Assembly (NCBI RefSeq): GCF_000016665.1
Contig: NC_009523.1
Span: 3,905,501 to 3,969,500 of the forward strand
DNA from: Roseiflexus sp. RS-1
Lineage (GTDB): Bacteria > Chloroflexota > Chloroflexia > Chloroflexales > Roseiflexaceae
DNA: 64,000 nucleotides
Direction of reading: 5' to 3'
Shown here: piece after piece, positions 22,297-44,749 of the stretch
How positions within the stretch are numbered: the stretch's first letter is position 1
Layout: each line of letters opens with the position of its first letter
Position numbers and translations under genes: made by a program
The notes under the pieces: model-generated
Told to the model about the DNA's origin: nothing
What the model saw: the letters and a program-made list of their open reading frames with translations, nothing else
Database searches by the model: none

Positions 22297-22591
22297 CTGC
22301 TCAGGCATGCGGTTGAAACCGCGCCTGAGAGGACGCTTCGCGCCGGGCGACCGCCTACGCGGTCGCCGTGGCAGCGTCCACGCTGAACTGTGCGGTCAAG
22401 GCTACCGCTGAGGTAACCGCTCAGGCATGCGGTTGCAACCGCGCCTGAGAGGACGCTTCGCGCCGGGCGACCGCCTGTGCGGTCGCCGTAGCAGCGTCCA
22501 CGCAGGTGGACGCCCGGCGAAAAGCCTTCCAGAGGCGATTTCAATCGCTGAACTGAAAGGCGCTCCAGTCGCTGCGCAACGGAGGGAAGGG

Positions 22592-22904: not shown

Positions 22905-23079
22905 CTGCTCAGGCATGCGGTTGAAACCGCGCCTGAGAGGACGCTTCGCGCCGGGCGACCGCCTGTGCGGTCGCCGTGGCAGCGTCCACGCAGGTGGACG
23001 CCCGGCGAAAAGCCTTCCAGAGGCGATTTCAATCGCTGAACTGAAAGGCGCTCCAGTCGCTGCGCAACGGAGGGAAGGG

Positions 23080-24771: not shown

Positions 24772-24934
24772 GGGCTGCGTTGAAGATCATCGGCTACCGG
24801 CATATGTCCCGCTTGCCTGGATTGTATCACGGGAGCGGGCGTTGGGTGACGCTGAGTAGAGCATGGCAAAGCGCGAATGTGAGTGAACAGGGTGCGGGTG
24901 CGAGCTTCGGCGCCAGCGCCAGGAAGCCCACAGG

Positions 24935-25094
24935 CATAGATTATCGCGGTCGTCGCTGGCGAGCGATGCCTCAGCAGGGCGGGGACCATCGTCGACGGCT
25001 CGCCATCTGACAGCATCATGCTGGTGCAGGTATGGCGCTGATCGTGAACGCAGATCAGCGGAATACCGGCTTTTTTGACCAACCGAGTGAACAT
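24935..25094 (-). pseudogene. tyrosine recombinase (integrase) remnant
   Basis: About 53 residues beginning MFTRLVKKAGIPLICVHDQR, followed by HTCTSMMLSDGEPSTMVPAL and SPATTAIIYA. This is the C-terminal catalytic part of a phage-type integrase with the His-x-x-Arg box (HDQRHT); the usual leucine is Gln. The frame then runs into unrelated sequence. No complete integrase is nearby. Confidence 0.65.
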
Positions 25095-25177
25095 ATCGAT
25101 TTTGACTCAATTGATTGGAAACCTCGACGTAGTGTTGAGCATGCTTAATCTTTGCATCGCGCAGTGAAGGCATACAT

Positions 25178-26404: not shown

Positions 26405-26407
26405 TTT

Positions 26408-27616
26408 TCACTCCTCTGTCAAGAACGACTTTGCATGAGATACGAGTACCGCGTGCATCCAGAAGCGGCCCTGGCCTGAGGGCTCTAGCAGGCCGCGGTC
26501 AACCAGGGTGCGGATGATCGGCCTTGGGTCGTCAACCTCCCACACGGCTTGCATCGCCGCAGCGTCAAAGGTGGCCGGTTTCGGCGCGAAGGCGCCAAGG
26601 TAGGCGAAGCAGTCGAGCGTGTGGGCATCCAGCAGATCGGTGCTCTTTTTCAGGAGCGCCGCAACGGTGGGCGTTGTCTCTCTGGCAACTTCGGCGCGAT
26701 CAGCTGGCGCCTGAGCCTGGATCAGCCTTGCGCCCTCGCGGATATCGACCAATAATTGCTCGACGCCAAAGCCATAGCTTGCTTCAGTGTGGAGCAGCCG
26801 ACCGGCCACCTGAATAGCCAGCGGCAGACCTTCCAGATCCTTGACCAGTTCGCGGCTGGTCGCCTCGTTCTCTGCAACTACCGTCGGCGCTAAGGTGCGC
26901 AGCAGCGCCAGCGCATCGGTCTCGCTCAACACACCGAGCACATAGACATCATCGGGCGTTGGGGCGATTGCGCGGGCCACTTCTGGCAGGCGCGTGGTGA
27001 TGAGCAACGCGCAACCACTGCCGCCGACATTGAAGGGTACCACGTGCTCAGCCTGCCAGGCGTCATCGACAATCAGAAGGTAGCGCTTGTTGCGCAGCAG
27101 GCCGCGCAGCAGGTTAGATGCTTCTTCAACGGTATGCGCCTGGTTAAGATCCGGCACACCAAGGGCACGTCCCCAGGCGGCCAGTTCACCGAAGAGTCCT
27201 GGCTGTTGGCCAAGCGAGGCCCACAGCACTCCATCAGGGAAACGCGCGTTGATATCCGGATCGTGTGCGAGCGCAGCCGCCAGGGTGGTCTTGCCGACAC
27301 CCGGCCAGCCGCGTATTGCGGTCAGCACCTTCAACGGGGCAGGACTTTCGCCTTTGGCCGAGATGCCAACCCGTTGCTTCAGCGCCTGGAGATCATTGTC
27401 GCGCCCGATGATGAGGGCAGGCTTCAGTGGGACGCTGCCAGGCGCAGGGGGTGGCGGGAGATTGGTATACAGTACAGTATCGCGGCCAGACTGAATAATG
27501 GTGTTGTTGTTGCCGGTGGTGATTGGGCTATTCGTCGCGTCACCGACCACGCCAGCAGCGCCTGCGCCGCTGATATCCTGGTTCTGCTGTGGCTGATCAC
27601 TGTCCATTGGTTTCAC
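26408..27616 (-). CDS. NB-ARC (AP-ATPase) STAND protein, upstream half of an NB-ARC/TPR protein
   Basis: 402 residues from GTG 27616 (ATG 27607 is also possible). Residues 14-50 are a Gly/Asn-rich segment (ISGAGAAGVVGDATNSPITT, then GNNNTIIQSG). The NB-ARC core shows the P-loop GWPGVGKTT at 103-111, Walker B RYLLIVDDAW, the sensor LLITTRLPEVA and the GLPLA motif LEGLPLAIQVAG. A winged-helix region ends MHAVLVSHAKSFLTEE, then TGA. This is an apoptosis-ATPase-like switch that forms oligomers on ligand binding. No effector domain is fused; the CHAT protease 6 kb away is a possible partner. Confidence 0.88.
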   Translation of the reverse strand: MKPMDSDQPQQNQDISGAGAAGVVGDATNSPITTGNNNTIIQSGRDTVLYTNLPPPPAPGSVPLKPALIIGRDNDLQALKQRVGISAKGESPAPLKVLTAIRGWPGVGKTTLAAALAHDPDINARFPDGVLWASLGQQPGLFGELAAWGRALGVPDLNQAHTVEEASNLLRGLLRNKRYLLIVDDAWQAEHVVPFNVGGSGCALLITTRLPEVARAIAPTPDDVYVLGVLSETDALALLRTLAPTVVAENEATSRELVKDLEGLPLAIQVAGRLLHTEASYGFGVEQLLVDIREGARLIQAQAPADRAEVARETTPTVAALLKKSTDLLDAHTLDCFAYLGAFAPKPATFDAAAMQAVWEVDDPRPIIRTLVDRGLLEPSGQGRFWMHAVLVSHAKSFLTEE

Positions 27617-28660: not shown

Positions 28661-29017
28661 ATGCCGGATTTCAACAACCTGCCGCTCATTCTGGCTGGGC
28701 CGATTGTGCGACGCGTCGAACCAACGCTGGTAGCAGTCTGGGTTGCCCTTTCCGATGCGCGCACGGTAGAACTTGGCATCTGGACCGGTATCACCAATGT
28801 CGGCAGTTCCGGTGTCTTGTTCGGCAATACATTGGCGGGATGGAAGGCGACGGCTGCATCCATTCCGATCGGCGCGAAACTGCATATCGCGCTGGTCACG
28901 CTCGACCTTACCGCAAGCCCGCTGATTCCAGGGCAGATCTACAGCTATAACCTGGTCTTCACCGGAGGGAGTTCGTCCCAGGATACCTTGATTGCTAGTT
29001 CATGTTCGTACAGATGA
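28661..29017 (+). CDS. PhoD-like phosphoesterase, N-terminal fragment (interrupted by IS)
   Basis: The frame reads 118 residues; the first 107 or so belong to the gene (LPLILAGPIVRRVEPTLVAV to FTGGSSSQD) and the last ones come from the IS end. The segment resembles the N-terminal beta-sandwich that precedes PhoD-like metallophosphatase domains. Removing the IS and one copy of its 3-base target duplication joins this frame exactly to the C-terminal part at 29916, giving 827 residues. Confidence 0.75.
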   Translation: MPDFNNLPLILAGPIVRRVEPTLVAVWVALSDARTVELGIWTGITNVGSSGVLFGNTLAGWKATAASIPIGAKLHIALVTLDLTASPLIPGQIYSYNLVFTGGSSSQDTLIASSCSYR

Positions 29018-29912
29018 GTGCAATGAGCGTTGCGTGCACCTTCAGTTCAAACCCGGCATTGGCGCCTGCCGTCAAGCGTCCAGCGCCCATCTTCTCCAGT
29101 TGACTGTTGACCGTTCGTCATCTCGATGCCACGACGATGCGCGCGCAATTCGATGGCGTCCATAAACCAGGCGTGCGGACGCATGTTCGCCCGGCGCACT
29201 GGAACCAGGCGCACCCCCGTCTCCGCCAGGATGCTCGCCGCATCAGCGGCGCTGTTGCGGCGAATAATTATTCGCCGCTACGCCCAACCGCCGCGCCCCA
29301 GCGGGCAGGCCATACGCCAGTTCATGCACGGGTGTCAGGTCATGCACCCCTGCGGGCAGCATCTGAACGCGCACGGGCACGCCATCCGGGCGGCAGACCA
29401 GATGCACACGCCATCCAAAGAACTTCTCCCGTTTCGCCGCGCACTACCCGCAGCATTCGCGCCCCGGCGCCTTCCGACAGCGCCGGGCGCGCACACGACG
29501 GCAGACTGGCAGGGGGAGGCTATCGATGATGAACACGTCGCCCGTGGTGAACACCTCCCCCAACACGTCCGGAATCCAGACCATCCAATCAGCGAGCTGA
29601 TGGAGGCGACGATTGAAGCGCGCGACGCTGATCCGCCCCGACAGATAGCCGCACCCGTGCATGATCTGCACCGCCCGTTCGTGATGATTGCCAACATACT
29701 TGGCGGCGACGACGGCAATCGTCAGAATCTCGGAGTCGGGGACCTGCGCCCGCACATCACTGCGATGCCCCAGGCGTTCCATCAACGTGTCAATCACGAC
29801 AAAAGCGGCTATTATCGGGCGAGCGACCGTCGGCTCCTCCTGGCGATGATGTTGGTTGGGCAACCGCGATCGTGCCAGAGGTGTCGGTGGTCGTCAACTA
29901 GCAATCAAGGTA
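28984..29912 (-). mobile_element. IS982-family element, 929 bp, with perfect ends
   Basis: The left end TACCTTGATTGCTAGTT (28984-29000) and right end AACTAGCAATCAAGGTA (29896-29912) are perfect 17-base inverted repeats. GGA flanks both sides (28981-28983 and 29913-29915) as a 3-base target duplication. The transposase is on the minus strand and is inactive. The transposase reading ends NMN and TAG just inside one terminal repeat. Confidence 0.88.
28987..29863 (-). pseudogene. IS982-family transposase, inactivated
   Basis: The first 139 residues (EPTVARPIIAAFVVIDTLME to VFIIDSLPLPVCRRVRARRC) contain the first catalytic Asp in DSLPLPVC, typical of IS982. An in-frame TAG follows ECCG, after which the same frame continues CAAKREKFFGWRVHLVCRPD. 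At least two more frame changes come later, and the end FELKVHATLIALICTNMN is in frame with the final stop. A source of active transposase elsewhere would be needed for movement. Confidence 0.8.
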
Positions 29913-29955
29913 GGATCTGAATACGCTGCGTCTGCTGGAAGACGCCGGGCCAGCG

Positions 29956-32076
29956 ATGGAACCAACCAGACTGGCGCTCGGTTACCTCGCCGGGCAATTG
30001 CCCGGCTTTACGCTGCCTGCTATGTCGCTCGACAATCTGAAAATCGTTCATGGCTCCTGCCGTAAAGCACATGGCTTTGGCGTCGATGGACTGGCGCCGC
30101 TGGATAAGATCATTGAGCGTACCCAGACCGACGCCAACACCCGACCGCAACAGTTGTTCCTGACCGGCGACCAGATCTATGCCGATGATATTGCTATTAT
30201 GCTGCTGCCGCAATTGACCGTTGCCGGCAACGCATTGCTTGGGGTTTCGGAAGAACTGCCGCTGAGAACCTCCACTGGCGATATCAGGGTTGTCGCCGAT
30301 AGCACGAATTTCCCTACGTCGTGGCGCCAGGAACTGATTAAGCAGCAGGCACAGTTTTCCAGCCACGAGGCTGCCTGTCATGCGCTCTCATTCGGTGAAT
30401 ACTGCGCGCTCTATCTGTTCTCCTGGTCGAATGTCCTCTGGGATTCGTTTATTGACGTTGATGATGTTTTCCCCGACTGTTCCGGCTCAAGCGCCGACTG
30501 CCCCGACGCCGACACGACGGTAAACGGCCTGCCAGCCCATCTTCAGTCGCTCTATCCCGCCGACAAGCGCAAAGAGCAGATCAAGCAATGGTACAAACAG
30601 CGCGATCTGTTCGCCGATCAGCTTGAGGATGTCAAAGCCTTCAAGAAAACCTTGCCCAATGTGCAGCGGGCGCTGGCGAACATCGCCACCTACATGATCT
30701 TCGACGACCACGAAGTCACCGACGACTGGTATCTGACCCAGGACTGGCGCGACCGGGTGCTGACCAGTCCCTTAGGCGTCACGATTATGCGAAATGCTCT
30801 GACGACTTTCGCATTGTTTCAGGCATGGGGCAACGATCCGAAACGTTACACGACCGGCGATCATGCCGCGCTGCTGACCCACGCGCAGGCGTTATTCCCC
30901 GCAACCGGCGGCCCCGCGCAATCGGCCGCCAACGCGCTTGATGCGCTCTATGGTTTTGGCGGCGCCGATCCGCTGGTCAAGTGGCATTTCCATGTCCCCA
31001 GCGGGCCAACGACGACAGTAGTGCTGGATACACGCACCCGGCGAACGTTCAGCGGTCGATATACGCCGCCCGGTCTGGTTTCCGATGTCGCCCTCGACGA
31101 ACAGTTGCCAGATTCGTTCGCCCCTTCGCCTGGCGCCGAGATTCTGATTGTGGTTTCCGCTGCACCAGTGCTGGGATTGGCGGTAATCGAGGAACTGGCG
31201 CAACCCATCGGCGCACGCGGCTATTTCGATTTTATCTCGTCAGTTGTAATGAGGCGCGAGCCCGAAATTACCGGTTATCTCGAATTTGATATGGAAGCCT
31301 GGTCGCTGCATACCGAACGCTTCGAGGCATTGCTGGCGCGCTTCAACCAGATGGGCAGGGTCGTCATTCTCTCCGGCGACGTACATTATAGCTTTAGCGC
31401 GGAAATGGATTACTGGAAGAATGCTCAACCTCAACCGGGCCGCATCGTGCAACTCACATCCAGCGCGCTCAAGAACGAATGGGGCATCCGTGCCAAGCGT
31501 GCACTCGAAACGGTTGCAGCCCAGGAGATCCTGCACAACGCATACTATCCGCTGTCACGACTGGGTTGGAGCAACCCAACCGATCTCATTGGGCGGGTAC
31601 ACGTCCCCAGCGGTGCAATACCCCGCAACATCCGCGCGATGCTCCGCCGCACCCCGGTGGTGCTGCCCGCTGACAATTGGGAACCAGGGAGCAGTATTGC
31701 AGTCGCGCCCGACTGGGCATGGCGGGTGAGCCTGGTCAAGGATCTGCGCCCCGATGACAGCAGTCCCAACGCCTGTCCGGCCGACGGGCGAGTCGGGCCG
31801 ATTAACCCCGACATTGTTCCCGCTACCCCCGACGATGGTTATATCAAAGTGCTGGAGCGCGCTGAAAAGCGATTGAAAGCCAAAATCGCGCGTTCGGTGG
31901 TGTTCGCGTCGAATCTTGGACTGGTCTCATTTTCGGGAACCGGCGTGACGCTGAAAGTCACCCATACCTTGATGTACATGCATCCAGATGGCGCGAAACC
32001 CGCCGATCCCCAGGCATATACTGTGCACGAACTCAGCCTGGCGCCAACGACCGACCTGCCGCCGACGATACGCTGA
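29956..32076 (+). CDS. PhoD-like metallophosphatase, C-terminal part
   Basis: 706 residues from ATG 29956; the matching frame begins at 29916 right after the IS. Metal-binding motifs of the PhoD fold are all here: GSCRKAHGFG, LTGDQIYADD, MIFDDHEVTDDW and LSGDVHYSFS. Such enzymes cleave phosphodiesters or phosphomonoesters with Fe/Ca centres. The catalytic domain is complete, so an internal start could still give an active enzyme lacking its N-terminal domain. No signal peptide is seen. The next gene begins 28 bases downstream, so it heads a cluster of very large unknown proteins. Confidence 0.82.
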   Translation: MEPTRLALGYLAGQLPGFTLPAMSLDNLKIVHGSCRKAHGFGVDGLAPLDKIIERTQTDANTRPQQLFLTGDQIYADDIAIMLLPQLTVAGNALLGVSEELPLRTSTGDIRVVADSTNFPTSWRQELIKQQAQFSSHEAACHALSFGEYCALYLFSWSNVLWDSFIDVDDVFPDCSGSSADCPDADTTVNGLPAHLQSLYPADKRKEQIKQWYKQRDLFADQLEDVKAFKKTLPNVQRALANIATYMIFDDHEVTDDWYLTQDWRDRVLTSPLGVTIMRNALTTFALFQAWGNDPKRYTTGDHAALLTHAQALFPATGGPAQSAANALDALYGFGGADPLVKWHFHVPSGPTTTVVLDTRTRRTFSGRYTPPGLVSDVALDEQLPDSFAPSPGAEILIVVSAAPVLGLAVIEELAQPIGARGYFDFISSVVMRREPEITGYLEFDMEAWSLHTERFEALLARFNQMGRVVILSGDVHYSFSAEMDYWKNAQPQPGRIVQLTSSALKNEWGIRAKRALETVAAQEILHNAYYPLSRLGWSNPTDLIGRVHVPSGAIPRNIRAMLRRTPVVLPADNWEPGSSIAVAPDWAWRVSLVKDLRPDDSSPNACPADGRVGPINPDIVPATPDDGYIKVLERAEKRLKAKIARSVVFASNLGLVSFSGTGVTLKVTHTLMYMHPDGAKPADPQAYTVHELSLAPTTDLPPTIR

Positions 32077-32104
32077 AACCCAGCGGTAGTGTGAGGATAC
32101 GCCT

Positions 32105-34516
32105 GTGAGCAGCGACACCCGCAATGATTTGCAGCGTCTGGTCAGCGAACTGCGCCAGATCCTGGATCCGATCGCGCGCAGCGTGGGCGATAGCGCCATT
32201 CGCCGCGAGATTTTGCTGGCGCTCGGCCTCGATCCCGCGCAGTCGTCGCAGTCGCTGACGATCCCGCCCTCCTCGCTCGCCAGCATCGACGCCTATCGCG
32301 AACGGGCCGCCGATGACGTCGATCTGCAGGCGTTTATCAGCGCGCTCTCCGACCTGACGCAGATCGTTCAGGCGCTGATTGACTTTGTTCAGTCAGCGGC
32401 GGCAGCTGACTCAAACGCCCCGGCCGGGTTTATCGTCGAAGAGGCGGTCAGTTTCTTCTTGCAGGCGGCCACGATCTCATATCTGCGCGTGCGCCTGCCG
32501 GGAGTGTATATCACCGCCAGAGCGCTGCAACTGCTCGAAGATCAGGCGATCCATTTCGGCAGCATCGTCAGGTTGTTCTTCAGAATTGGCGACTATTTCG
32601 ATGAGGTGTTTGGCGACGCGCTCGATCTTCAGACTGAAGCTCATGCCAAACAGGTATCCGATGTGTTTCTGTTTGTGTCTGGCGTTATCGTGGCGTCGCT
32701 GATGAAAGCCGATTTTGTCTATGGCTATGATGCCGGGCCTGGTTCGACAAGTCCGATCGGCGATGCGGTCAATAATCGCACCCTGACGATCCGCCTGAGC
32801 GGCAAAACCAGGGATTCGTCGAACAATATCGTCAAGGGCGCGCTGCTGCTGAGTATGGCGCTGCTGCCGCGCGATCATGGCGGTCCGGGTCTGCTGATGC
32901 GCATCAAGGGCGAAGGCGCACTTGAGGCGCCAATCACCGACAATCTCAGTTTCCAGTTCGCGACCGACGGTCCTGATTTCCTGGTGTATATCGGCGATGG
33001 TTCGCATAGCTTCCCCTCATCAACCGACGCCTCGGTCACAGTGAGCCTGATCTATAAGTCAAAGCCCGCCAGAGAGATCATCTGGGGCGACGCCAATGGC
33101 GTCCATCTCCGGATCGGCAGCAGCAAGATCGAAGGCAAAGTCGGCGTTACCGATCAGAGTATCAAAGGCGAAATCAAAGACAGCGCGTTTGTTTTGAAGA
33201 CCGACTCGGCTGATGGATTTCTGAGAACCATCCTCAACGCAATTACCAGCGACGGTAAACTGGAAACTAAATTCGATTTCAATATCGGCTATTCAAAGAA
33301 AAAGGGCTTCTTCATCGGCGGCGGCGCCGGGCTGATGGTCAGTATTCCGCTGCACGAAACGCTTGGCCCGCTTCAGTTCAATACCCTGACCGTCGGCCTG
33401 GCGCTGGGCGAAAAGGCTGGCAGAGACCCTGGCTTCAAGCTGGAAGGTTCGCTCAGTTTTGGTCTTGACCTTGGCGTGCTGCAGGCGTCGGTTGATCGGA
33501 TCGGCCTGTCAGGGCTGGTTATTTTCGACGACGGCGAATTCACGCTGGGCTTCAAGCCGCCCAACGGCGTCGGCCTGGCGGTTAATGCCGGGCCGGTGCG
33601 CGGTGGCGGCTTCCTGAATTTCGACTACGACCGTGGTGAATATGCTGGCGGACTGGAACTGGATATCGCAGGCATCATTACCCTGACCGCGCTGGGCGTG
33701 ATCACCACCAAAATGCCCGATGGCAGCGACGGCTTCGCGCTGGTGGCTATTCTGGCGGTTGAGTTCGGCGCCCCTATCCAGTTGGGGCTGGGCTTTACCT
33801 GGATCGGCATTGGCGGCATTTTCGGGCTGAACCGCACTATGCGGCTGGAAGCCATGGCGGCTGGCATCAAGTCGGGCGCAGCCGAGAGTATTCTGTTCCC
33901 AAGAAATATCGTTGCCAACGCCGCGCGCATCATCAGTGACCTGCGCGTCTTCTTCCCACCGCAGAACGATACCTTTCTGGTCGGCGGCATGCTCAAGATT
34001 GGCTGGGGCACGCCCACGCTGGTCAGCCTCGCACTGGGGGTTGTGATCCAGATCCCGCCGGGAACCTTCGCGATTCTTGGTGTGCTGAAGGTGATTCTGC
34101 CGGATGAAAACGCAGCGTTGCTGCAATTGAAAGTGGGCTTTATCGGTGCGTACGAGCCCGATAGAGAACGCGCCTGGTTCTTCGCGACCCTGTATGATTC
34201 GCGCGTGCTGGTGATGACGATCGAAGGTGGTATGGGTGTGCTGATTGCCTGGGGCGGCGCCAGCAACTTCGTTATCTCGGTCGGCGGATTCCATCCGCAG
34301 TTCCAGCCACCGCCGCTGCCCTTCCCCACGCCGGATCGCCTGTCGATTAATATCCTCAACTATCCGCTGGCGCGCATCCGGGTCATGGCATATTTTGCAG
34401 TTACATCGAATACTGTAAAGACAATTTCCTGCCCAATCTCAACTTCATCCAGCAGAACAGCATTTCGCTGCTTGAGACCAACCAGGCCTTTATCGAAGCC
34501 TACATGGTCGGGTTGA
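32105..34516 (+). CDS. DUF6603-like giant-family protein, C-terminus lost by deletion
   Basis: 803 residues as read; the first 760 or so are real. The N-terminal 150 residues are helical (RNDLQRLVSELRQILDPIAR). The bulk is Gly-rich beta sequence with repeats such as FFIGGGAGLMVSIPLHETLG and FTWIGIGGIFGLNRTMRLEA, which I take as DUF6603. After MAYFAVTSNTV (about 34395) the frame enters the reading of another protein out of phase and stops at 34516. Function unknown; no signal peptide is visible. Confidence 0.7.
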   Translation: MSSDTRNDLQRLVSELRQILDPIARSVGDSAIRREILLALGLDPAQSSQSLTIPPSSLASIDAYRERAADDVDLQAFISALSDLTQIVQALIDFVQSAAAADSNAPAGFIVEEAVSFFLQAATISYLRVRLPGVYITARALQLLEDQAIHFGSIVRLFFRIGDYFDEVFGDALDLQTEAHAKQVSDVFLFVSGVIVASLMKADFVYGYDAGPGSTSPIGDAVNNRTLTIRLSGKTRDSSNNIVKGALLLSMALLPRDHGGPGLLMRIKGEGALEAPITDNLSFQFATDGPDFLVYIGDGSHSFPSSTDASVTVSLIYKSKPAREIIWGDANGVHLRIGSSKIEGKVGVTDQSIKGEIKDSAFVLKTDSADGFLRTILNAITSDGKLETKFDFNIGYSKKKGFFIGGGAGLMVSIPLHETLGPLQFNTLTVGLALGEKAGRDPGFKLEGSLSFGLDLGVLQASVDRIGLSGLVIFDDGEFTLGFKPPNGVGLAVNAGPVRGGGFLNFDYDRGEYAGGLELDIAGIITLTALGVITTKMPDGSDGFALVAILAVEFGAPIQLGLGFTWIGIGGIFGLNRTMRLEAMAAGIKSGAAESILFPRNIVANAARIISDLRVFFPPQNDTFLVGGMLKIGWGTPTLVSLALGVVIQIPPGTFAILGVLKVILPDENAALLQLKVGFIGAYEPDRERAWFFATLYDSRVLVMTIEGGMGVLIAWGGASNFVISVGGFHPQFQPPPLPFPTPDRLSINILNYPLARIRVMAYFAVTSNTVKTISCPISTSSSRTAFRCLRPTRPLSKPTWSG

Positions 34517-35358
34517 ACCATGAATTCGCCCGCGAACTCCTCTGGCGCGAATATGTCACCGACCAGCGCGGCAGCTATTTCCGCCAGTTCTGGGATGTCA
34601 CCGGCTATCTGCACGGCAGCGCCGAAGATCCCGAAGTCTTACGTGAAAAACTGCGTGATATTCCACCACTGCACCGCTGGTCGAAGTTCTCAAAACTGGG
34701 CGACCACGACAATCGCGAAACCGGCGGTGCGAACGAAGAGGAAATCGTGCTGGTGATCCGCGGCGAACTGCTCAAGAAATACCCAACGGCGGTCATCTAC
34801 GCCCACCGCGCAAAATGGCAGCGAAAAGCGGATGGCACGATCGACAACGCTGTCGAACGCCAGCTGGACGACGCTGGCGTGGCGCTGGCGGAAAACCCGC
34901 CGCGCGACAAGGTCAAGACGCCGCTCTACGAAGCCAAAGTTGATCCTGATATCTACTTCTTCGGCTTCGACCTGACCGTCGAAGCGGCGATCGGCGGCAC
35001 TGGCGAAAACGAGACCGACGATCCAGGATGGTTCTTCGTGATTAAGGAGCGCCCTGGTGAACCGCGTTTTGGATTGGATATCGGAACCGCTGACCATATC
35101 TACGTCTGGAATGATCTGGCCTGGGGCAATCTCGTGCCAGACGCGCAGGCTGGCGACTATATCCAGATCACCAGCGCCACGCCGACGATCACCCTGGAGA
35201 CGCTGCCATCCACCGAGAACGAGAAGATCGACCAGGCTGCCGATGACCAGAGCGTACGCTGGCACAGAGACGCTCATGCCGCCGAAGTGGCCTATATCCT
35301 GTATCAGGCGCCCGTCATGGTCGCCGTGCATGCATCGGAGATGATACCAAGATCGTGA
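34504..35358 (+). CDS. C-terminal part of an uncharacterised large protein (N-terminus deleted)
   Basis: 284 residues from ATG 34504. The same frame continues upstream to about 34390 as YIEYCKDNFLPNLNFIQQNS, so the sequence is the end of a longer protein whose beginning was deleted. Conserved-looking blocks are MVGLNHEFARELLWREY, TDQRGSYFRQFWDV and LVIRGELLKKYPTAVIYAHR. It overlaps the end of the DUF6603 frame. No known domain is recognised. Confidence 0.65.
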   Translation: MVGLNHEFARELLWREYVTDQRGSYFRQFWDVTGYLHGSAEDPEVLREKLRDIPPLHRWSKFSKLGDHDNRETGGANEEEIVLVIRGELLKKYPTAVIYAHRAKWQRKADGTIDNAVERQLDDAGVALAENPPRDKVKTPLYEAKVDPDIYFFGFDLTVEAAIGGTGENETDDPGWFFVIKERPGEPRFGLDIGTADHIYVWNDLAWGNLVPDAQAGDYIQITSATPTITLETLPSTENEKIDQAADDQSVRWHRDAHAAEVAYILYQAPVMVAVHASEMIPRS

Positions 35359-35431
35359 CGTTGCACTACGACGAACGCGCCGAGGCGCCTGCCATTGATG
35401 GCATAACTCCTGCCAGTAGAGGACCAAACGA

Positions 35432-38400
35432 ATGTCCGACACCAGCTTCCAATCGCTCCAGCAGCAGCTACAGCAGGCGCAAACCGCGCTGAAAGCCGGC
35501 GACGAAGCCCTCTTCCTCGCCCGTGAGAAACTCAAGCGCATCGAAGCCCGTCAGGCGCGACTGAAGCGTTTCTTTGACCCGGCAAACCCCAGCCATCGCG
35601 CCCAGGAAAAACAACTGGCAGCGCAGCACGACGCAACCGTCCGCGAGATCGCAGCGCTGCGCGAGCGACTCGGCGCGCTCCAGGAAAACCTGGCTGGCCA
35701 GCTCGACGCCTTCCTGCCCCTCGCTGACCCACGGAAGTCGATTGAACAGCTCAATGATCTCTATCCAATCCTGCTCCTGCCGCTCCGCCTCGAAACCCGC
35801 TTCAAACAGATTGCCACACCCGATGGAATGCAGCACCAGTTATGGGTGCGCGTCTACCCCGACGATTGCGCCATCGACGCCTTCGAAGCGTCGCTAAGCG
35901 AAACCGAGCTCAAAAACGCCCAGACCTACTGGTCTCAACTCTGGCGCGCTGCTGGCGACGAGAATCTCCGTCGTGCGGCATGGCGCAACCTGGTTGCCAG
36001 TCATGGCGTCGGGCGCGCCATCTGGATCGAACGCACCTACCGGCCCACGAACGAAGCCGACCAACCTGCACCCGACGCAACTGCCCGCGTGCTGGTCATC
36101 CCCACTACCAGCCCGCTCGACGTCGCCACCCAAGGACATGCCCGCGCCTACTGGAGCGCTGTCTGGCGCGCCGCCAGCGACGCAGCCGCAATCGACGCCG
36201 CGTATCAGGCGCTGGTCACGGCGATCGGTGATGATACAGCGACGATGATCCTGAAAGACTACCGACCATTCAACCTGAGCGACGACCCGCCCGCCGGGCA
36301 TACCCGCGCCACAACCACCGTCGTCGTCGCATTTGTCACCTTTCCCTCCCCCGACGAAACCAACGCCCAACGCCGCGCCTGGTCGAAGGCGCCACATGTT
36401 GATGTCTTGCCTGAACGCCTGGTGCTGCTCGGCTATAACGGCGATATCCTGACCCTCGAACAAATCGGCGCCGCGATCCCCGCCAGTCTCACGACCGGCC
36501 CGGACCCGCTGGCGGATGAAGGCAACCAGATCCGCCAGGATGGCGCTGATATTCAGGTTAGCGCCGAGATGCGCTGGATGGTCGATTTTGAAGAAGCGTT
36601 GACCAGAGGCATGGCGTTTCGTGTCAATCTCAGCCCGCAACAGTACAACCTTGGCTTCGACAGGCTGATGGCGCTTGGCGTCCGTCTCGCTGCCGATCAG
36701 ACCGCAGGCAGGCAACTCTTCGAACAATTGCTCACCAACCATCATTACAGCCGCGCCGGACTGAGCCTGTTGCCACAAGGAACGCCGACCAACAATACTG
36801 ATGATGCGACCTCCGGCTATTCGAGTATGGATGATGCGGATGCCAGCTATGAGATCCTCAATGGCGGGAATAGTGCGCTTGACCCGGCTGCCGACTGGTT
36901 CGAACGGTATGACGGGATCTGGCTGACGCAACTGCTCGGTCTGGACAGTTCGATCATCAATACGGTTTCCGGTGCGACCAATAGCGACATTCGCGACGCC
37001 CAGGCGATGAATATCGCCCTCTTTCCGGCAACGCTGGGCTATACCCTGGGCGCCATGCTCTCGCCAGTGTTCAGCGACGCCGCGATTGAGTTCGTCCGAT
37101 CGTTCTACACCCACCTGGTCAGCGGGCGTGGTATGCTGCCAGCGCTGCGCATTGGTCGGCAGCCATACGGCATCCTGCCGACCACCGCCTACCGTCGTAT
37201 GGCGTTTGACCAACCGGTAGACGGCTATCTCGCCGCAAACATTGGCATCGCCAGGCGGATTTCCGCTGGTTCGCCCTATCTGAACAGGCTCTATGACGTG
37301 CTGATGCGCGCCTATCGCGTATGGGGAACATTACGCGACCGTGTGGCGCATGTTGGCGCCACCGGCGATCCACATCAGATCTTGTTGGAAATCCTGGGGT
37401 TGCATCCCAACTCAGTTGAGTTTGACCAGCGCTATGCTGAAAGCCTGGCGCAGACGCTCAACACCATGAATCTCAGCGGCTTTTTCGAGCAGTTGATTGT
37501 TGCGCTCGCTCTACTCGAACAGGGACTGGACGTACTGCGCGACCATGGCTATGATCCCGGCGAACGCGAACGACCCGATCTGCTGGATAAATTCTTCTTC
37601 GCCAGGCCGTTTCCAATCGATGAGACAAAACTGGTCGACGATCAACCACTCTCCGAAGATAAACCCATCCGCGACTATACCGCCGACGGCCGCAACTATA
37701 TCGAGTGGCTGATTGACGCCGCAAACACATCGCTGGAAACCCTGCGCCTCCAGACAGGTCTGCCTGATGCCGACCGGCCAACTGCATTGTTGTATCTGAT
37801 GCTGCGCCATGCGCTGATGCTTGGCTACTACGATACGAGCATTCGCCTGTATCAACGCGCCGATCTGCTGGATAGCGACGCCGTGCTGGCGGCGCGACGC
37901 GAAGCGCCGTTCATCCATATCAAGCAACAGGTCCAATCCAGCGAAAGTCGCTTCAAACTGCTGTACGACACGCAACCGGCGATCGCCGAGGGACGGCCGA
38001 ATGTCAGAGTCGCTGATTACATCACCTCACGCCTGGCGACACTGAACGATGCTGCTCGTCTGCGCGAACAGATCGCCGCGCTTGAGCGCCTCAAGAACCG
38101 CCCTACCGCCGTGTTGGAACGCGTCTTTGTCGAGCATCTCGACACCTGCTCCTACCGCCTGGATGCATGGTTGCAGGGGTTGGCGCTCTACCAGTTGAGC
38201 GTGATGCGTTCTATTGGTGTAGAAGGCTCTTCGCGCACCGGACTGTATCTCGGCGCTTACGGTTGGGTGGAGAACCTGCGTCCCAATCCTGCCCGGTTGC
38301 GTCCGGTTCACCTGACCAACGACGAACTGCGCGCCGTTTTTCAGCGCGATGGCGACCCGCCGTTAATGCGCGACTCTGCCAACGCCGGTTATATTCATGC

Positions 38401-41038
38401 GCCGTCGCTCAATCATGCCGTCACCGCTGCCGTGCTGCGGAATGCCTATATCAGCACCGCCGCTTCCGATAACGCCGAAGTCTTCGCGGTCAATCTCTCC
38501 TCAGACCGGGTGCGCCGCGCCATGGCGATTATCGAAGGCCTGCGCAACGGTCAGAGCCTTGGCGCGCTGCTGGGATATCAACTCGAACGCGGTCTGCACG
38601 ACCGCCATACACTGGCGGAAGTCGACCAGTATATCTATGTACTGCGCGATCGCTTCCCGCTGGTGGCAAACCGGCTGAAAAAGACCAAAACCACCGATCA
38701 TGGGTCGATCGCGGCGATCGAAGCGCGGAATGTCGTCGATGGCGAGGCGCTGGTCAATCATATCGAGAATGCTACACCTCGCGCCTATCCATATGGCATT
38801 GCCGGTCTGCCGGCGCCGGGTACGCCTGCTGGCGACGTTCTCGCCGCCGAGCTGATGCGTCTGCTCGATACCAACGACGCCGTCGCCGACATTGGCCTTG
38901 CTGAAGGGATCCACCAGGTCGTCCAGGGCAACTACGACCGCGCCGCAGCGACGCTGGAGTCACTATCGGGCGATAACCTGCCACTCATCCCCGACGTGGT
39001 CACAACGCCGCGCAGCGGCCTGGGGCTGACCTTACGGCTCGGGTTGCATCTCAAGCCAGGGTTGACGCCAACCAGTTCACCGATCATGGGCATGGCAATG
39101 ACACCACGCGCCAGTGCTGAACCTGCCCTCAACGACTGGTTGAGCCGGATCTTTCCGCCGCCTGATCAGGTAGGAACGGCGGTGGTAATAACGACGAACG
39201 ATGGCGTCCAGAGTACCCGGATCGTTACTCAGGCACAGCTGGGCTTGCAGCCAATCGATCTGCTATTTATGATCGTGCCGACCGATGAACAGGCTATGAC
39301 AGCGCTCGACGACGCGATTCGCCGCCATGTCAGCAGTGGTCTGGCGCTCGATGCAACGGTCGCTATTCGCTACACACAATCGATCGCGCCGCTCCGCTCA
39401 TTCTTCGAAGTGGGTGCGCTTGTCAATCAGGTACGCCCACTCGTGCTGGAAACCCGCCCGCTGCGATCCACCGACCTCTCAATCCCGACCGAGACCGGCA
39501 CGACCCAAGCCGCCGCAGCGGTCTACCATACTGATCGTCTGAATCATCTGATTTCCAATCTCAACGATCCTGCTGGTGCGCCCGCCCGCCTCCGCGATCT
39601 GGCGACGGCGCTGACGACCTTGCTGTCCGATGCGGTCGCTCAGCGTGACGGGCTGGTCGCAGGTATCGACGTTCACCTGAATGTCGTTATTGACGCGCTG
39701 GCGGAACTAAACCTGTATGGCTTGCCCCAGACCGGGTCTGGCGCCATACTTGAATGGCGTCAGACGCGCTACACCGCGCTGATGACCAAAGTGCGCGACC
39801 TGGCAGTGCGCTGGCAGGCAAAACTTGACGCCTTCGACGCAATGCTGCTCGATTATGGCGCACTCGACCCGCAAACCAGCGACGAGGCGCGTTTCGCGAG
39901 GTTGCAAGAAATTGAAAAACAGGTGGTCATCACTCCAACCCGGCTTGCGCCAGGCGCTACGCCCGCCGACTACCTGGCGCTGCTACCAGCGCAACGTCTG
40001 GCGTTCGCCAACAAACGCGCCGAATTTACTGGCATTCTGAACGCGCCGCCGCCAACCCTCTCAGGTCTGCTTGCCAGTGTCGAAACTGCCGCTGCGGGCA
40101 TGGAGACCTTTGACTTCGTCAGGCTCGAGCTGGACAACGACAAAGACGAGATCATCCGCTTCACCCAGGATACCAACAGCCATATACAGAACCTGATCGC
40201 CGACATCGACAACCGCATCCGGACAGCGACCGACGATCTGGCAGCCTATGCAGCCGCGACCAGCGAGAATGCGCGCGCCAACGCCTTCACCCACGCCGCA
40301 CATACGCTCCTTTCGCCTGATTTCATGGTCATACCAGAGTTCACCCTCGACGCCAATCAGGCTGATGAACTTCAGAAAGCCTACGCCAGCCGCGACGCGC
40401 TGCTCCGACACCAGACCGTGACGCTTGGCAATGACTTCCCGGTCGACGAATGGCTCTACGGCATCGCCCGGGTGCGCGATATGCCGCACCACTGGGAAGC
40501 GGCAACCATGCTAGCCGACGCACTTGCCCAGGCAGCGCTGGATCTGCATCCGCTACAACTGCCATATCTGGACGATGACAGTTGGCTGGCATTGCCCTAC
40601 CCGGAAGACTATCTGCTCGAAACCGACAAGCTGCTGTATACCGCGCACTTCACCGAGCCATTCGACAAAAACGCGACGCAGTGCGGTCTCCTCCTTGATG
40701 AATGGACTGAAATCATCCCAACCACCGAAGAAACGACCGGCGTAAGCTTCCATTATGACCGTCCGAATGCTGAACCGCCGCAGGTCATGCTCCTTGCTGT
40801 ACCGCCGGTGATCGACGGCAAATGGCAATGGGCCGATCTGGTCGATACTCTGCATGAAACCCTGGAACTCGCCAGGCGACGGGCAATCGAGCCTGACCAT
40901 ATTGCCAGCACTGACTACGGTCGTTACCTGCCCGCGACCATCTCAGCAGTGACCATGCATCCCATCACCATCGCCCTGAACTATGCACTGGTCAATAATG
41001 TGTACTCGGCTGTTGCAAGCGAGGGTGACAATGCCTGA
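35432..41038 (+). CDS. uncharacterised 1,868-residue protein
   Basis: The longest gene in the window. Residues 1-95 form a coiled coil rich in Gln, Ala, Arg and Glu (FQSLQQQLQQAQTALKAGDE). The rest is mixed alpha/beta with no repeat period that I can see. Possible landmarks are LLLPLRLETRF near residue 110, RIGRQPYGILPTTAY near 575 and a second helical stretch near 1,560-1,680. No catalytic motif, membrane segment or signal peptide is visible. ATG 35432 has AGAGGA upstream. It overlaps the next gene by eight bases, so the two proteins are very likely made together and may form a complex. Confidence 0.8.
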   Translation: MSDTSFQSLQQQLQQAQTALKAGDEALFLAREKLKRIEARQARLKRFFDPANPSHRAQEKQLAAQHDATVREIAALRERLGALQENLAGQLDAFLPLADPRKSIEQLNDLYPILLLPLRLETRFKQIATPDGMQHQLWVRVYPDDCAIDAFEASLSETELKNAQTYWSQLWRAAGDENLRRAAWRNLVASHGVGRAIWIERTYRPTNEADQPAPDATARVLVIPTTSPLDVATQGHARAYWSAVWRAASDAAAIDAAYQALVTAIGDDTATMILKDYRPFNLSDDPPAGHTRATTTVVVAFVTFPSPDETNAQRRAWSKAPHVDVLPERLVLLGYNGDILTLEQIGAAIPASLTTGPDPLADEGNQIRQDGADIQVSAEMRWMVDFEEALTRGMAFRVNLSPQQYNLGFDRLMALGVRLAADQTAGRQLFEQLLTNHHYSRAGLSLLPQGTPTNNTDDATSGYSSMDDADASYEILNGGNSALDPAADWFERYDGIWLTQLLGLDSSIINTVSGATNSDIRDAQAMNIALFPATLGYTLGAMLSPVFSDAAIEFVRSFYTHLVSGRGMLPALRIGRQPYGILPTTAYRRMAFDQPVDGYLAANIGIARRISAGSPYLNRLYDVLMRAYRVWGTLRDRVAHVGATGDPHQILLEILGLHPNSVEFDQRYAESLAQTLNTMNLSGFFEQLIVALALLEQGLDVLRDHGYDPGERERPDLLDKFFFARPFPIDETKLVDDQPLSEDKPIRDYTADGRNYIEWLIDAANTSLETLRLQTGLPDADRPTALLYLMLRHALMLGYYDTSIRLYQRADLLDSDAVLAARREAPFIHIKQQVQSSESRFKLLYDTQPAIAEGRPNVRVADYITSRLATLNDAARLREQIAALERLKNRPTAVLERVFVEHLDTCSYRLDAWLQGLALYQLSVMRSIGVEGSSRTGLYLGAYGWVENLRPNPARLRPVHLTNDELRAVFQRDGDPPLMRDSANAGYIHAPSLNHAVTAAVLRNAYISTAASDNAEVFAVNLSSDRVRRAMAIIEGLRNGQSLGALLGYQLERGLHDRHTLAEVDQYIYVLRDRFPLVANRLKKTKTTDHGSIAAIEARNVVDGEALVNHIENATPRAYPYGIAGLPAPGTPAGDVLAAELMRLLDTNDAVADIGLAEGIHQVVQGNYDRAAATLESLSGDNLPLIPDVVTTPRSGLGLTLRLGLHLKPGLTPTSSPIMGMAMTPRASAEPALNDWLSRIFPPPDQVGTAVVITTNDGVQSTRIVTQAQLGLQPIDLLFMIVPTDEQAMTALDDAIRRHVSSGLALDATVAIRYTQSIAPLRSFFEVGALVNQVRPLVLETRPLRSTDLSIPTETGTTQAAAAVYHTDRLNHLISNLNDPAGAPARLRDLATALTTLLSDAVAQRDGLVAGIDVHLNVVIDALAELNLYGLPQTGSGAILEWRQTRYTALMTKVRDLAVRWQAKLDAFDAMLLDYGALDPQTSDEARFARLQEIEKQVVITPTRLAPGATPADYLALLPAQRLAFANKRAEFTGILNAPPPTLSGLLASVETAAAGMETFDFVRLELDNDKDEIIRFTQDTNSHIQNLIADIDNRIRTATDDLAAYAAATSENARANAFTHAAHTLLSPDFMVIPEFTLDANQADELQKAYASRDALLRHQTVTLGNDFPVDEWLYGIARVRDMPHHWEAATMLADALAQAALDLHPLQLPYLDDDSWLALPYPEDYLLETDKLLYTAHFTEPFDKNATQCGLLLDEWTEIIPTTEETTGVSFHYDRPNAEPPQVMLLAVPPVIDGKWQWADLVDTLHETLELARRRAIEPDHIASTDYGRYLPATISAVTMHPITIALNYALVNNVYSAVASEGDNA

Positions 41039-42890
41039 AAGAATCATCAGCAACATTGAGCAGGCTCTGGTGCGACGCCAGTTACCGACCATCACCCTCT
41101 GGAACCGCCTCGAGGGTCGCCCGCGCACGCACGATTTCCAGCGCTCGCTCAGAGCCGAAATACGCGACGCGCTCTGGATGCTCACCCGCCAGTGGCAGGT
41201 TGGCGAATTCCAGGGCGATGACGCCGGTTCACCGGTCTTCGCCAAAATCCACCTGCAGATGTCGCGTTTCGACGCCTACCAGGCCGGTGCGCACGCGCCG
41301 CAGCCCTTTGACTACAGCCTGCCGCTCGAAGCACAGGTCGAGCAGCGACCTATCCCGTTCGAGCGCGGCAATCAGCCAATTTCGCTCGACATTCGCTTGC
41401 TGATGGGGCGGCAGTGGCTCAAGTTGCTGGCGTCAATCGGCGATTTCCGCGAAGAATTCTATGCGTTGTATCCCATCGACGCGCCCGACCCGGCGCAAAA
41501 GGCTGATGCCGAGGTCTGCTCGCATGCCGCAACCTGGCAGACCGTCGCAGCAGTGGCGCGCCACGCGATGGACGGCTACAAGCTCTACCGATTTCTGAAG
41601 AGCGACCCAAACCATCATGCCTATCAGGGAACCAGCATTCCCACTGCCGACCATGTGGCGGTTGAGGAGCTTGAGACCAGATTTATTGCGTGGTTTGAAC
41701 GGTTGCTGATCCAACCTGGTGCGGCGCAACCCGACGCCTGGCAGCCCGATCATCTCGAATACCAGTTTAGCGTTTCCTCGCCCGATCCAACCGGTGCGGG
41801 CGTCCTCAAAGCCGAAGAGTATTACCAGGGGCGACTGGACTGGTACAACCTCGACATCGATCCAACCCGCGCGCGCCTTGAGCCCGATGTTCCGGCGACG
41901 CCGCCCGGCGCGCTGCCTGCGCCGACCTGGTCGTTCATTCCCACAGAGTTACGGTTCGAAGGCATGCCCAACACCCGCTGGTGGACGTTTGAAGATTCGC
42001 GCACCAGTTTCGGCGCTATCAATGCTGGCGCCAAGGACCTGGCGCAACTGATGCTGCTCGAATTCGGCCTGCTGTATGCCAACGACTGGTTCCTCTTCCC
42101 ATTGACCCTGCCAATCGGCGTCAGCACGCGCATCCAGGGCCTGGCGGTCACCAATGTGTTTGGCGAACGGATCTGGATCGAAGCAGCCGGACGCGGACAG
42201 GACGAAGACTGGCAGCGCTGGAACATGTATACTCACACCGTCTATGGTGACGATAACGTTCAGGCCGATATGCGCGCCATTCTGTTGCCGACTGTGCCCA
42301 AGATTCAGGAAAGCCGCCCGCTCGAAGAAGTCGCCTTTATTCGCGATGAAATGGCCAATATGGTCTGGGGCATTGAAACGCGGATCACTATGGTCACCGG
42401 CGAAAGCCTGCCGGGCTATGAAGCTGGCGTCGATCTCAGGCGTTTCTACGAACGCCTGGTGAATCTGGCTCCCGCGCCGCCGCCAGTTGCCGCTGCGCCA
42501 GTACGTTATCAGGTGATGTCGAACAATGTACCCGAAAACTGGATTCCTTTCATTCCGGTTCATATACCGGGCAGCAATCGCGAGATACAGTTACAGCGCG
42601 CCGCGTTGCCGCGCGTCATTGCGCGCGACCCGAACCGCCCTGAAAAGATTCGCCCGCGAACTGCATTGCTACGCGAAGGTCTGGCGAATGGACAGCCATA
42701 CTTCGTCCATGAAGAAGCCATTACCCGTGCCGGAGTCGATCTGCGACAGACCTTTCAGCGCACGCGCTGGCACAATGGCCGCTGCGTCATCTGGTTTGGC
42801 GCGCGCAAAGCCACCGGGCGCGGTGAGGGAGCCAGCAATCTGCGCTTTGACTATCTTGCGCCAGCGCCGTTTACTCCGCCGGAAACCTGA
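41031..42890 (+). CDS. uncharacterised 619-residue partner protein
   Basis: ATG 41031 overlaps the stop of the 1,868-residue gene, with GAGGGTGA upstream; an in-frame upstream start would lie inside that gene. The N-terminus has ALWMLTRQWQVGEFQGDDAG, a block I recognise only from other hypothetical proteins. Further blocks are PNTRWWTFEDSRTSFGAINA and EVAFIRDEMANMVWGIETRI. No known domain, signal peptide or membrane helix is seen. Translational coupling suggests a fixed ratio with the preceding protein. Confidence 0.8.
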   Translation: MPERIISNIEQALVRRQLPTITLWNRLEGRPRTHDFQRSLRAEIRDALWMLTRQWQVGEFQGDDAGSPVFAKIHLQMSRFDAYQAGAHAPQPFDYSLPLEAQVEQRPIPFERGNQPISLDIRLLMGRQWLKLLASIGDFREEFYALYPIDAPDPAQKADAEVCSHAATWQTVAAVARHAMDGYKLYRFLKSDPNHHAYQGTSIPTADHVAVEELETRFIAWFERLLIQPGAAQPDAWQPDHLEYQFSVSSPDPTGAGVLKAEEYYQGRLDWYNLDIDPTRARLEPDVPATPPGALPAPTWSFIPTELRFEGMPNTRWWTFEDSRTSFGAINAGAKDLAQLMLLEFGLLYANDWFLFPLTLPIGVSTRIQGLAVTNVFGERIWIEAAGRGQDEDWQRWNMYTHTVYGDDNVQADMRAILLPTVPKIQESRPLEEVAFIRDEMANMVWGIETRITMVTGESLPGYEAGVDLRRFYERLVNLAPAPPPVAAAPVRYQVMSNNVPENWIPFIPVHIPGSNREIQLQRAALPRVIARDPNRPEKIRPRTALLREGLANGQPYFVHEEAITRAGVDLRQTFQRTRWHNGRCVIWFGARKATGRGEGASNLRFDYLAPAPFTPPET

Positions 42891-43350
42891 TATTTATTGG
42901 GTGTTATGCGGTCACTCTCAAGCTGTGCATCAAGAACGACTATCCCAGAGCACATCGGCGGTGCGCTCGAAGTGGTTCTTCGAGACCGGGGTGTTAATGC
43001 TGGCGTGAACTATCTCTCGGGACGGGATTAAGCCAGGCTGCTGTATCGTGCATAACATACCTTGATTGCTCGTTCATGTTTGTACAGATGAGCGCAATGA
43101 GCGTTGCATGCACCCTCAGTTCAAACCCGGCATTGGTGAAGGTGTATCCCGCATAGTAACCATTCACACTAAAGTACTGCATTCTGGCGCCACCCTGTTG
43201 CATCACGGCATGCTATGCTGATCTAAAAGTCAAAAAATCGCTAAAACGAACCGATCAACTGTACGTTGCTCCTACGCTCGTGTGGCGCGTCGGTTCCATG
43301 CGTAACAGGCGCAACAGGACAGGCATTCCCAGGAAGGAGCGATCCCATCC
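42891..43350. other. gap between the large-protein cluster and the G8 protein
   Basis: No complete gene is seen. Positions 43049-43140 hold an IS982 end; the rest shows no clear signal. Confidence 0.5.
43049..43140 (-). mobile_element. IS982 end remnant
   Basis: TACCTTGATTGCTCGTTCATG differs by one base from the terminal repeat of the IS at 28984. Its minus strand reads NAGFELRVHATLIALICTNM, the same transposase C-terminus. The rest of the element is missing. Confidence 0.75.
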
Positions 43351-44727
43351 ATGCAGCGCAATCCAGCCCTGATCGCGTCGGTATGTGCATTGTTGGTTTC
43401 CATTCTCTTCGCCGCCGGTTTGAGCCTTGCCGCTCCCTCATCAGCGCATTTCCCCTCTGTACAGATCACGCTTGCGTCTGGCGATCCGCCTGCACCGATG
43501 GACGTGCAGGTTGAGTCTGGCGCCGCGGTTGTCTGGCGCAATAACGACACACAGGCACACCGTCTCCGCTCTGTCGATGGCAGCTGGAGATCGCCGGTCA
43601 TCGCGCTAGGATCAGATCGGCATCAGGTATTCGTTGAGCCTGGACGCTATCCTTTTGTTTGCGATTTCGATCCAGGGATGAGCGGTGTGCTCACCGTTCA
43701 GCCTGATGCGTACCGCGTATTCCTGCCGCTGGTGATCCGCAGCGCACCGGGAGCGCAATCCGGCGAGCGCTGGTCGAACCCGGCGACGTGGGGCGGGCGT
43801 GTGCCGCAGAGTGGAGATGCGGCAACCATCCCGGCGGGCAAGGTCGTTCTGCTCGATGTCAGCCCGCCGCCGTTACAGAGTCTGACCATCGAAGGCGAAT
43901 TGGTCTTTGATCGGCGCGATCTCGATCTGACTGTCGGCTGGATCATGCTGCATGGTCAGGGACGCCTGCGCATTGGCACGCCAGCCGAACCGTTCGCCCA
44001 TCGCGCGACGATTACCCTCAACGCGCCCAATCCGAACGAAGATGTGATGGGAATGGGCACGCGCGGCATACTGCTCATGGGCGGTTCCTTCGAAGCGTAT
44101 GGCGTGATGCCGAATCGTGTGTGGACGAAACTGAACGACCATGCCGCTGCCGGTGCAACCACGCTTACCCTCAGCGATACGGTGAACTGGCAGCCCGGCG
44201 CCCAGATTGTCATCGCGCCAACCGACTTCTACGGTGTGGCGGAAACCGAACGACATACAGCACAGGCGGTGAACGGCGCCCGGGTCACGCTGGCGACGCC
44301 TCTGCAAACATCACGCTGGGGTCGGTTGCAGTATGTCAGTTCCACCGGAATGACCACGACGCCGACAACGGAAGTAACGCCGCTCGTGCTCGATGAACGC
44401 GCCGAAGTGGGACTGCTCTCGCGTCAGATCGTGATTCAGGGCGCCGATGATGCACGCTGGCGCAATGACCGCTTTGGCGCTCAGATCATGGTGATGGGGA
44501 GCGGGGTCTTGCGCCTCGATGGCGTTGAACTGCGGCGCGTCGGACAGGGCGGGCGTCCCGGTCGCTATCCGATCCACTTCCATCTGCTTTCGTATGCAGC
44601 AGACGGCAGCCTGATCGGTGATGCGACTCAGCAACTGGTCACCAACTCAAGCATCTGGAATTCGACCAACCGCTGCATAACGTCATGCCACAAATGGCAC
44701 AACGATTCGCAACAATATCTGCTATGA
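43351..44727 (+). CDS. secreted cupredoxin-G8 protein, 5' part (CEMIP/TMEM2-like; frameshifted)
   Basis: 458 residues. Residues 1-28 are a signal peptide (ALIASVCALLVSILFAAG). Residues 33-117 look like a cupredoxin with His70 and Cys104 but Asp107 where the second His ligand is expected, then Met110. VFLPLVIR lies at 123-130. From 138 a G8 domain follows (ERWSNPATWGGRVPQSGDAA, then LQSLTIEGELVFDRRDLDLT). Beta-helix sequence begins later. The frame breaks near 44682 after NRCIT and stops; the continuation is the gene at 44750. Confidence 0.82.
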   Translation: MQRNPALIASVCALLVSILFAAGLSLAAPSSAHFPSVQITLASGDPPAPMDVQVESGAAVVWRNNDTQAHRLRSVDGSWRSPVIALGSDRHQVFVEPGRYPFVCDFDPGMSGVLTVQPDAYRVFLPLVIRSAPGAQSGERWSNPATWGGRVPQSGDAATIPAGKVVLLDVSPPPLQSLTIEGELVFDRRDLDLTVGWIMLHGQGRLRIGTPAEPFAHRATITLNAPNPNEDVMGMGTRGILLMGGSFEAYGVMPNRVWTKLNDHAAAGATTLTLSDTVNWQPGAQIVIAPTDFYGVAETERHTAQAVNGARVTLATPLQTSRWGRLQYVSSTGMTTTPTTEVTPLVLDERAEVGLLSRQIVIQGADDARWRNDRFGAQIMVMGSGVLRLDGVELRRVGQGGRPGRYPIHFHLLSYAADGSLIGDATQQLVTNSSIWNSTNRCITSCHKWHNDSQQYLL

Positions 44728-44749
44728 CATCGCCGGTCACGCCATCTTT

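Follow-up and report, generated by a model that had tools for sequence, protein, structure and literature searches.

The 64,000-nucleotide stretch of Roseiflexus sp. RS-1 analysed here (hereafter the window; contig NC_009523.1, positions 3,905,501 to 3,969,500, from a 5.80 Mb genome assembled as a single contig) contains a run of very large genes behind a gene for a PhoD-like phosphoesterase. Do these genes form one system, and what could such a system do? The initial annotation had described five genes running in one direction, and all five frames are present on the same strand where it had placed them, the ATG of the 619-residue protein (at 41031) overlapping the stop codon of the preceding gene. 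We refer to the enzyme gene as X and to the genes that follow it as DUF6603, P3, P4 and P5.

Structure and damage of the window copy

The locus comprises the following features:

28661..29017, plus strand: 118-aa frame, the N-terminal piece of X (PhoD-like), severed by the inserted element
28983..29912, no strand assigned: multicopy element of 930 bp that interrupts the PhoD gene and recurs elsewhere in the genome
29956..32076, plus strand: main part of the PhoD-like phosphoesterase, the exchangeable enzyme X of the window operon (PF09423, 1.6e-9)
32105..34421, plus strand: truncated DUF6603, the putative adaptor; frame open to 34516, homology ending at residue 772 (PF20248, 1.1e-86)
34421..34426, plus strand: deletion junction, out of frame, located by three-frame translation and the end points of the DUF6603 and P3 homologies
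34426..35358, plus strand: P3 remnant, the C-terminal ~310 residues of a protein of ~1,100 aa, 69% identical to residues 793-1103 of P3 in locus L012
35432..41038, plus strand: P4, 1,868 aa, full length, with a coiled-coil-like N-terminus (alignment A6)
41031..42890, plus strand: P5, 619 aa, full length (alignment A3; model pLDDT 80, pTM 0.76)
43057..43136, plus strand: 80-bp end of the 930-bp multicopy element, a direct repeat of 28983-29062 (94% identity)

The two identities proposed in the initial annotation were borne out by profile searches, the PhoD frame scoring 37.8 bits against PF09423 and DUF6603 scoring 291.9 bits against PF20248, both above the curated cut-off of 27. The reading frame of the PhoD gene is interrupted. 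Its main part corresponds to residues 119-634 of the PhoD protein of L008, which occupies the equivalent operon position in a haloarchaeal plasmid, and lacks the first ~106 residues. The missing N-terminus is supplied by the 118-aa frame upstream, which matches residues 6-97 of the same protein (40%, E 2e-20) and lies in a region with an 82% DNA match to a sister genome. Between the two pieces sits the 930-bp element that splits the gene. Other genomic copies of this element are 100, 90 and 84% identical over the full or nearly full length and are accompanied by partial ones; no transposase was recognised within its 930 bp, and the 264-aa frame that lies over it (29126-29920) is probably spurious.

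The second lesion affects DUF6603 and P3. The PF20248 domain in the window is incomplete (model positions 1-344 of 502), cut by a deletion, and the protein matches residues 354-794 of the 1139 residues of its L012 homologue. The homologies to DUF6603 and P3 lie in different frames and meet at ~34424, no more than about 5 bp apart; about 3.4 kb are therefore missing relative to intact relatives, in which DUF6603 is about 1,140 aa and P3 about 1,115 aa long. The deleted part runs from about residue 795 of DUF6603 to its end and from residue 1 to about 792 of P3 (L012 numbering). What remains of P3 is also covered by alignments A1 and A5 and has an open frame with an ATG at 34504-35358 (284 aa). 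The initial annotation had called this frame the tail of a third large protein; it is indeed the C-terminal portion of one, but its origin as a deletion remnant had gone unnoticed. P4 and P5 are intact, and their alignments gather 45 members with 36-48% identity to the window P4 and 56 members with 45-56% identity to the window P5.

Judged from the sequence, with insertion and deletion both read from one assembly, the window locus is a decayed remnant of a modular operon. An insertion disrupts its PhoD gene and a deletion spans DUF6603 and P3, and it probably no longer functions. Among its congeners, nothing but a 96-residue fragment of P5 (91% identical) remains in one genome, and P4 is absent from the others searched; the operon is vestigial in the genus.

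Several observations concern the surroundings of the locus. The 80-bp end of the multicopy element flanks the operon on both sides as a direct repeat (28983-29062 and 43057-43136), and further copies of the element occur in the source genome and in a congener. Directly behind the operon, at 43351-46327, a G8/CEMIP beta-helix gene is split across two frames, which cover CEMIP model positions 2-66 and then 90-211. On the minus strand at 22257-27616, NB-ARC, TPR and NACHT proteins lie in adjacent frames of ~400 aa, and these may derive from STAND NTPase genes that have been split.

A conserved gene order behind a variable enzyme

A profile search of 84,980 species genomes recovered 404 relatives of P3. 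We read the loci of the best 80 of these, a sample biased toward best matches that spans 13 bacterial phyla. Intact relatives have the fixed order X-DUF6603-P3-P4-P5. Among those of the best 80 loci with enough flank, DUF6603 lies directly upstream of P3 in 67 of 69, P4 directly downstream of P3 in all 77, and P5 next after P4 in 65 of 67. In one Chloroflexota locus, where X is an M23 peptidase, the genes are permuted to P4-P5-X-DUF6603-P3. Apart from the upstream enzyme, no further conserved gene family was seen in the loci read. Since gene order is almost invariant and neighbouring genes mostly overlap or lie tens of bases apart, the proposal of the initial annotation that these genes make one transcript and one assembly is plausible. 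Its suggestion of a linked set of five families needs modification. DUF6603, P3, P4 and P5 are strongly linked, but the position of PhoD is taken by many other enzymes in relatives, and the set thus consists of four constant genes and one variable one.

The operon is widely and unevenly distributed. Searches by tblastn placed P4 and P5 together on plasmids of Streptomyces, Gemmatirosa, Rhizobium, Nocardia, Paraburkholderia and haloarchaea, the plasmid loci thus including Actinomycetota, Gemmatimonadota, Rhizobium and haloarchaea. DUF6603 exceeds the cut-off in only ten of 400 genomes of the phylum of the window, mostly as a second type (see below), and the phylum label switches 16 times for ten phyla on the tree of core proteins. 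This patchy distribution and the number of switches point to horizontal spread. A second decayed copy was noted in a Nitrosomonas MAG (L054, 9155-13222), in which P3 and P4 are shortened and DUF6603 and P5 are gone. In a record labelled bacteriophage (L010, MT835531.1), P3-P4-P5 have neighbours of actinobacterial appearance on inspection by eye, for example a BTAD-type regulator; the record was rejected as a viral source and is probably a mislabelled bacterial contig.

The variable gene lies immediately upstream of DUF6603 and sometimes comprises two or three genes. Its classes were assigned by Pfam, the enzyme functions being read from homology. Nal1/trypsin-like proteases, often in tandem, account for 33 of 69 proteins, followed by subtilases (13), M64-like metalloproteases (5) and galactose/glyoxal-oxidase-like proteins (4); rarer are one tyrosinase, one PLD-type phospholipase and several unknown families. 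PhoD occupies this position in the window, in a haloarchaeon and in Streptomyces. Catalytic motifs are present in most of the X proteins checked, with GDSG and HExxH found in the proteases and the D, HGT and GTSM motifs in most subtilases. The trypsin-like and subtilase enzymes have unrelated folds and a common C-terminal domain of ~120 aa (~122 residues), and in a search of 33 whole genomes all 35 matches to this domain fell within 5 kb of DUF6603.

The Nal1-like proteases that dominate the X position (L019, L030, L050 and others) weakly match models of the N- and C-terminal domains of plant NARROW LEAF 1. They may represent a large store of Nal1-like proteases in bacteria; a literature search for bacterial homologues of NARROW LEAF 1 found none described.

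The initial annotation could name no domain in the last three proteins, and P3, P4 and P5 indeed had no match in Pfam, NCBIfam, PHROGs, PADLOC or PDB. Sequence searches for solved relatives of these proteins, of DUF6603 and of the C-terminal domain of X gave only chance matches to coiled coils and designed helical bundles, and a fold search with the P5 model found no match (best E 0.15 in PDB and 0.17 among viral structures, VIA Z at most 2.8). A profile comparison of P3 with P5 revealed no similarity. A hydrophobic stretch is present in most P3 proteins (Kyte-Doolittle mean over the best 19 residues, median 3.0); P3 of L008 and L009 lacks a strong one. As the initial annotation had noted for the last three proteins of the locus, no signal-peptide-like N-terminus was evident by simple hydropathy in X or in the core proteins of the family. 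Some members carry accessory LTD, FG-GAP or PG-binding domains, and relatives of the second type LamG and Collar domains, all of them typical of extracellular proteins. No open paper was found that describes P3, P4, P5 or their operon partners (closed-access papers and preprints lay outside the search), and none on DUF6603. Within these papers and the libraries searched, the idea of an undescribed system therefore stands, and the set of DUF6603, P3, P4 and P5, present in at least 13 phyla and some archaea, is apparently undescribed.

DUF6603 as a two-part protein

DUF6603 is chimeric: its first ~490 residues track the class of X and the remaining ~640 track the constant genes. Operon pairs with the same X class have DUF6603 proteins that are similar over their entire length, whereas in close relatives with different X enzymes the identity is ~20% up to residue ~490 and mostly 80-100% beyond residue ~540. 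Trees of 52 DUF6603 proteins, drawn from the best 80 of the 404 P3 matches and built with FastTree only, show the same division. The tree of N-terminal halves requires 13 changes of X class (minimum 12, shuffled 31.7), the tree of C-terminal halves 28 (shuffled 31.5), and the P3 tree, with 45 rows, 23 (shuffled 25.3). Within the trypsin and subtilase classes, the partial correlation of X with the N-terminal half of DUF6603 (DUF6603-N) is 0.72 and 0.89, respectively, as against -0.13 and 0.25 with the C-terminal half (DUF6603-C).

The clearest natural exchange is that between L071 from Nitrosomonas ureae, which has a tyrosinase, and L030 from a Methylococcales MAG, which has a trypsin-like protease. 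The two loci are 86% identical in DNA over 13 kb, from residue ~500 of DUF6603 to the end of P5, and have 377 bp of upstream flank in common, yet X and DUF6603-N, which lie between, are unrelated. At the protein level P3, P4 and P5 are 89-91% identical, DUF6603-C 90-100% and DUF6603-N ~20%. In two more cross-class pairs similarity begins at this same residue, ~490. At the level of sequence, this co-segregation and exchange establish X and DUF6603-N as one heritable cassette, separate from DUF6603-C, P3, P4 and P5.

The model of an intact DUF6603 (pLDDT 82, pTM 0.51) predicts a helical N-terminus and long antiparallel sheets, with a low-confidence hinge at 493-498 that coincides with the exchange point. 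PF20248, a Pfam family of unknown function, spans only the constant beta part of the putative adaptor and scores 419-464 bits in intact relatives of this type (type I); the enzyme-matched half is in no library or open paper found. The N-terminal region of the window DUF6603 was considered as a member of the PhoD class; it gave no clear match, and the two other PhoD operons, L008 and L009, are not among its matches, a point against reading it as an enzyme-matched adaptor.

Possible functions of the assembly

We consider it fairly probable that the operon encodes an enzyme-carrying assembly, in which an enzyme-matched adaptor would sit on a constant chassis; the window carries a decayed copy of this operon. 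The N-terminal ~490 residues of DUF6603, predicted to form a helical domain and the first beta-sheet stretch, would be the enzyme-specific part, onto which X may dock; the fixed breakpoint marks this as the likely docking half. The remaining ~640 residues, with the long antiparallel beta-sheet and the C-terminal part, would belong to the chassis and form with P3, P4 and P5 one large cytoplasmic assembly devoid of Sec signals, and the ~120-residue helical C-terminal domain would be a dedicated part of many protease-type X enzymes. The assembly would carry X and, most likely, present or deliver it outside the cell or at the envelope. An action at these sites is suggested by the kinds of enzymes, the lack of Sec signals, the accessory domains and the absence of a conserved NTPase or regulator. 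More tentatively, and with slightly more doubt than confidence, we propose that the four giant proteins are a self-contained, plug-and-play enzyme carrier of the extracellular space or envelope, which swaps of the cassette of X and DUF6603-N could refit with proteases, phospholipases, phosphatases or oxidases. The initial annotation had suggested a particle, a tail-like structure or a toxin complex; the sequences show the cassette logic, and a particle or toxin function, the delivery and the target are putative.

This arrangement recalls two known systems. Polymorphic toxin systems (reviewed in PMC3482391) likewise join exchangeable, recombining enzyme cassettes to a constant chassis, but their variable part is the C-terminal tip of one polypeptide; here it is an upstream gene together with the N-terminal half of DUF6603, and hence not a C-terminal tip. 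No conserved immunity gene was seen, and no small gene recurs beside X across the loci, a comparison in which class-specific ones could be missed. Cargo-bearing eCIS such as PVC (PMC11495950) also place exchangeable cargo beside a conserved machine and consist of cytoplasmic proteins that lack Sec signals. Their cargo is matched by a short leader, whereas the operon described here has a large dedicated adaptor half.

Could the enzymes act inside the cell instead? The large proteins might constitute a conflict or immune system, sensing a signal and then releasing or activating an effector enzyme. Such a system would be in keeping with the combination of a conserved core and variable effectors, with X proteases of the trypsin and subtilase types, with the lack of evident signal peptides and with the filamentous or multicellular habit of many hosts; X also has a PADLOC match, though to a generic subtilase model only. 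We nevertheless think it unlikely, given that the operon has no conserved NTPase and no conserved family for nucleotide sensing or DNA binding, and that galactose-oxidase-like proteins, tyrosinase, PhoD and M23 better fit substrates outside the cell or at the envelope. DUF6603, P3, P4 and P5 also have no PADLOC match, and membership of a known anti-phage defence system was rejected for this core.

A somewhat less likely alternative retains action at the cell surface and dispenses with a released particle. DUF6603-C could form a beta-barrel or pore in the membrane, with the operon serving as a dedicated device for the translocation or surface display of X. The DUF6603 model has a porin-like sheet topology (VIA Z 14) with strongly hydrophobic strands, and the hydrophobic stretch of most P3 proteins could serve as a membrane anchor. 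However, the fold match is to a generic porin-like sheet only, its rmsd of 11-13 over ~265 residues being too high for a real porin; no signal peptide is evident, P3 of L008 and L009 has no strong hydrophobic stretch, and the operon also occurs in Actinomycetota, Paenibacillus and haloarchaea, which have no classical outer membrane.

We regard it as highly improbable that the operon represents a vestige or variant of a Tc toxin or of a known tail-like particle (eCIS, tailocin), even though the logic of cargo on a constant machine is similar and a type II relative has a protein with Collar and LamG domains. Phage-tail or Tc-toxin membership found no support in family searches: the window proteins had no Pfam or PHROGs match to sheath, tube, baseplate or AAA+ components of eCIS or tailocins, no other gene conserved in the loci supplies them, and the core proteins of the window had no Pfam match to TcA, TcB or TcC (RHS) at E up to 1. 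P5 has no fold match, and a phage origin was rejected after three scans of viral contigs recovered no relatives. Finally, that unrelated genes are adjacent by chance would fit nothing beyond the decay of the window copy and is refuted by the linkage counts, near-perfect across 13 phyla and accompanied by strong sequence conservation.

An enzyme-carrying assembly thus remains the preferred reading. The machine would comprise ~4,700 residues, with 40-60% identity across 13 phyla and a reach into archaea, and its three chassis families, P3, P4 and P5, are missing from the family libraries searched, with no relative of solved structure. Natural pairs, such as the tyrosinase and the trypsin-like protease on a 90% identical chassis, permit direct tests. 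If the proposal of a carrier is true, the operon would represent a natural system of a new kind for delivering or displaying enzymes and would provide a first functional context for DUF6603.

The second type of DUF6603 locus in Chloroflexota (type II; L123-L127, L129) offers a comparison. As in type I, complete loci have a variable gene before DUF6603, which in L123 and L124 encodes a metallo-beta-lactamase-fold hydrolase, and the gene after DUF6603 encodes a protein with an N-terminus distantly related to P3. In contrast to type I, the other large proteins, one of which has the LamG and Collar domains, show no detectable relationship to P4 or P5; they were considered as distant forms of either and gave no profile match. 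Within the type II set (L123-L127, L129, L130), one Chloroflexota genome (G110) has two copies, separated by about 28 kb.
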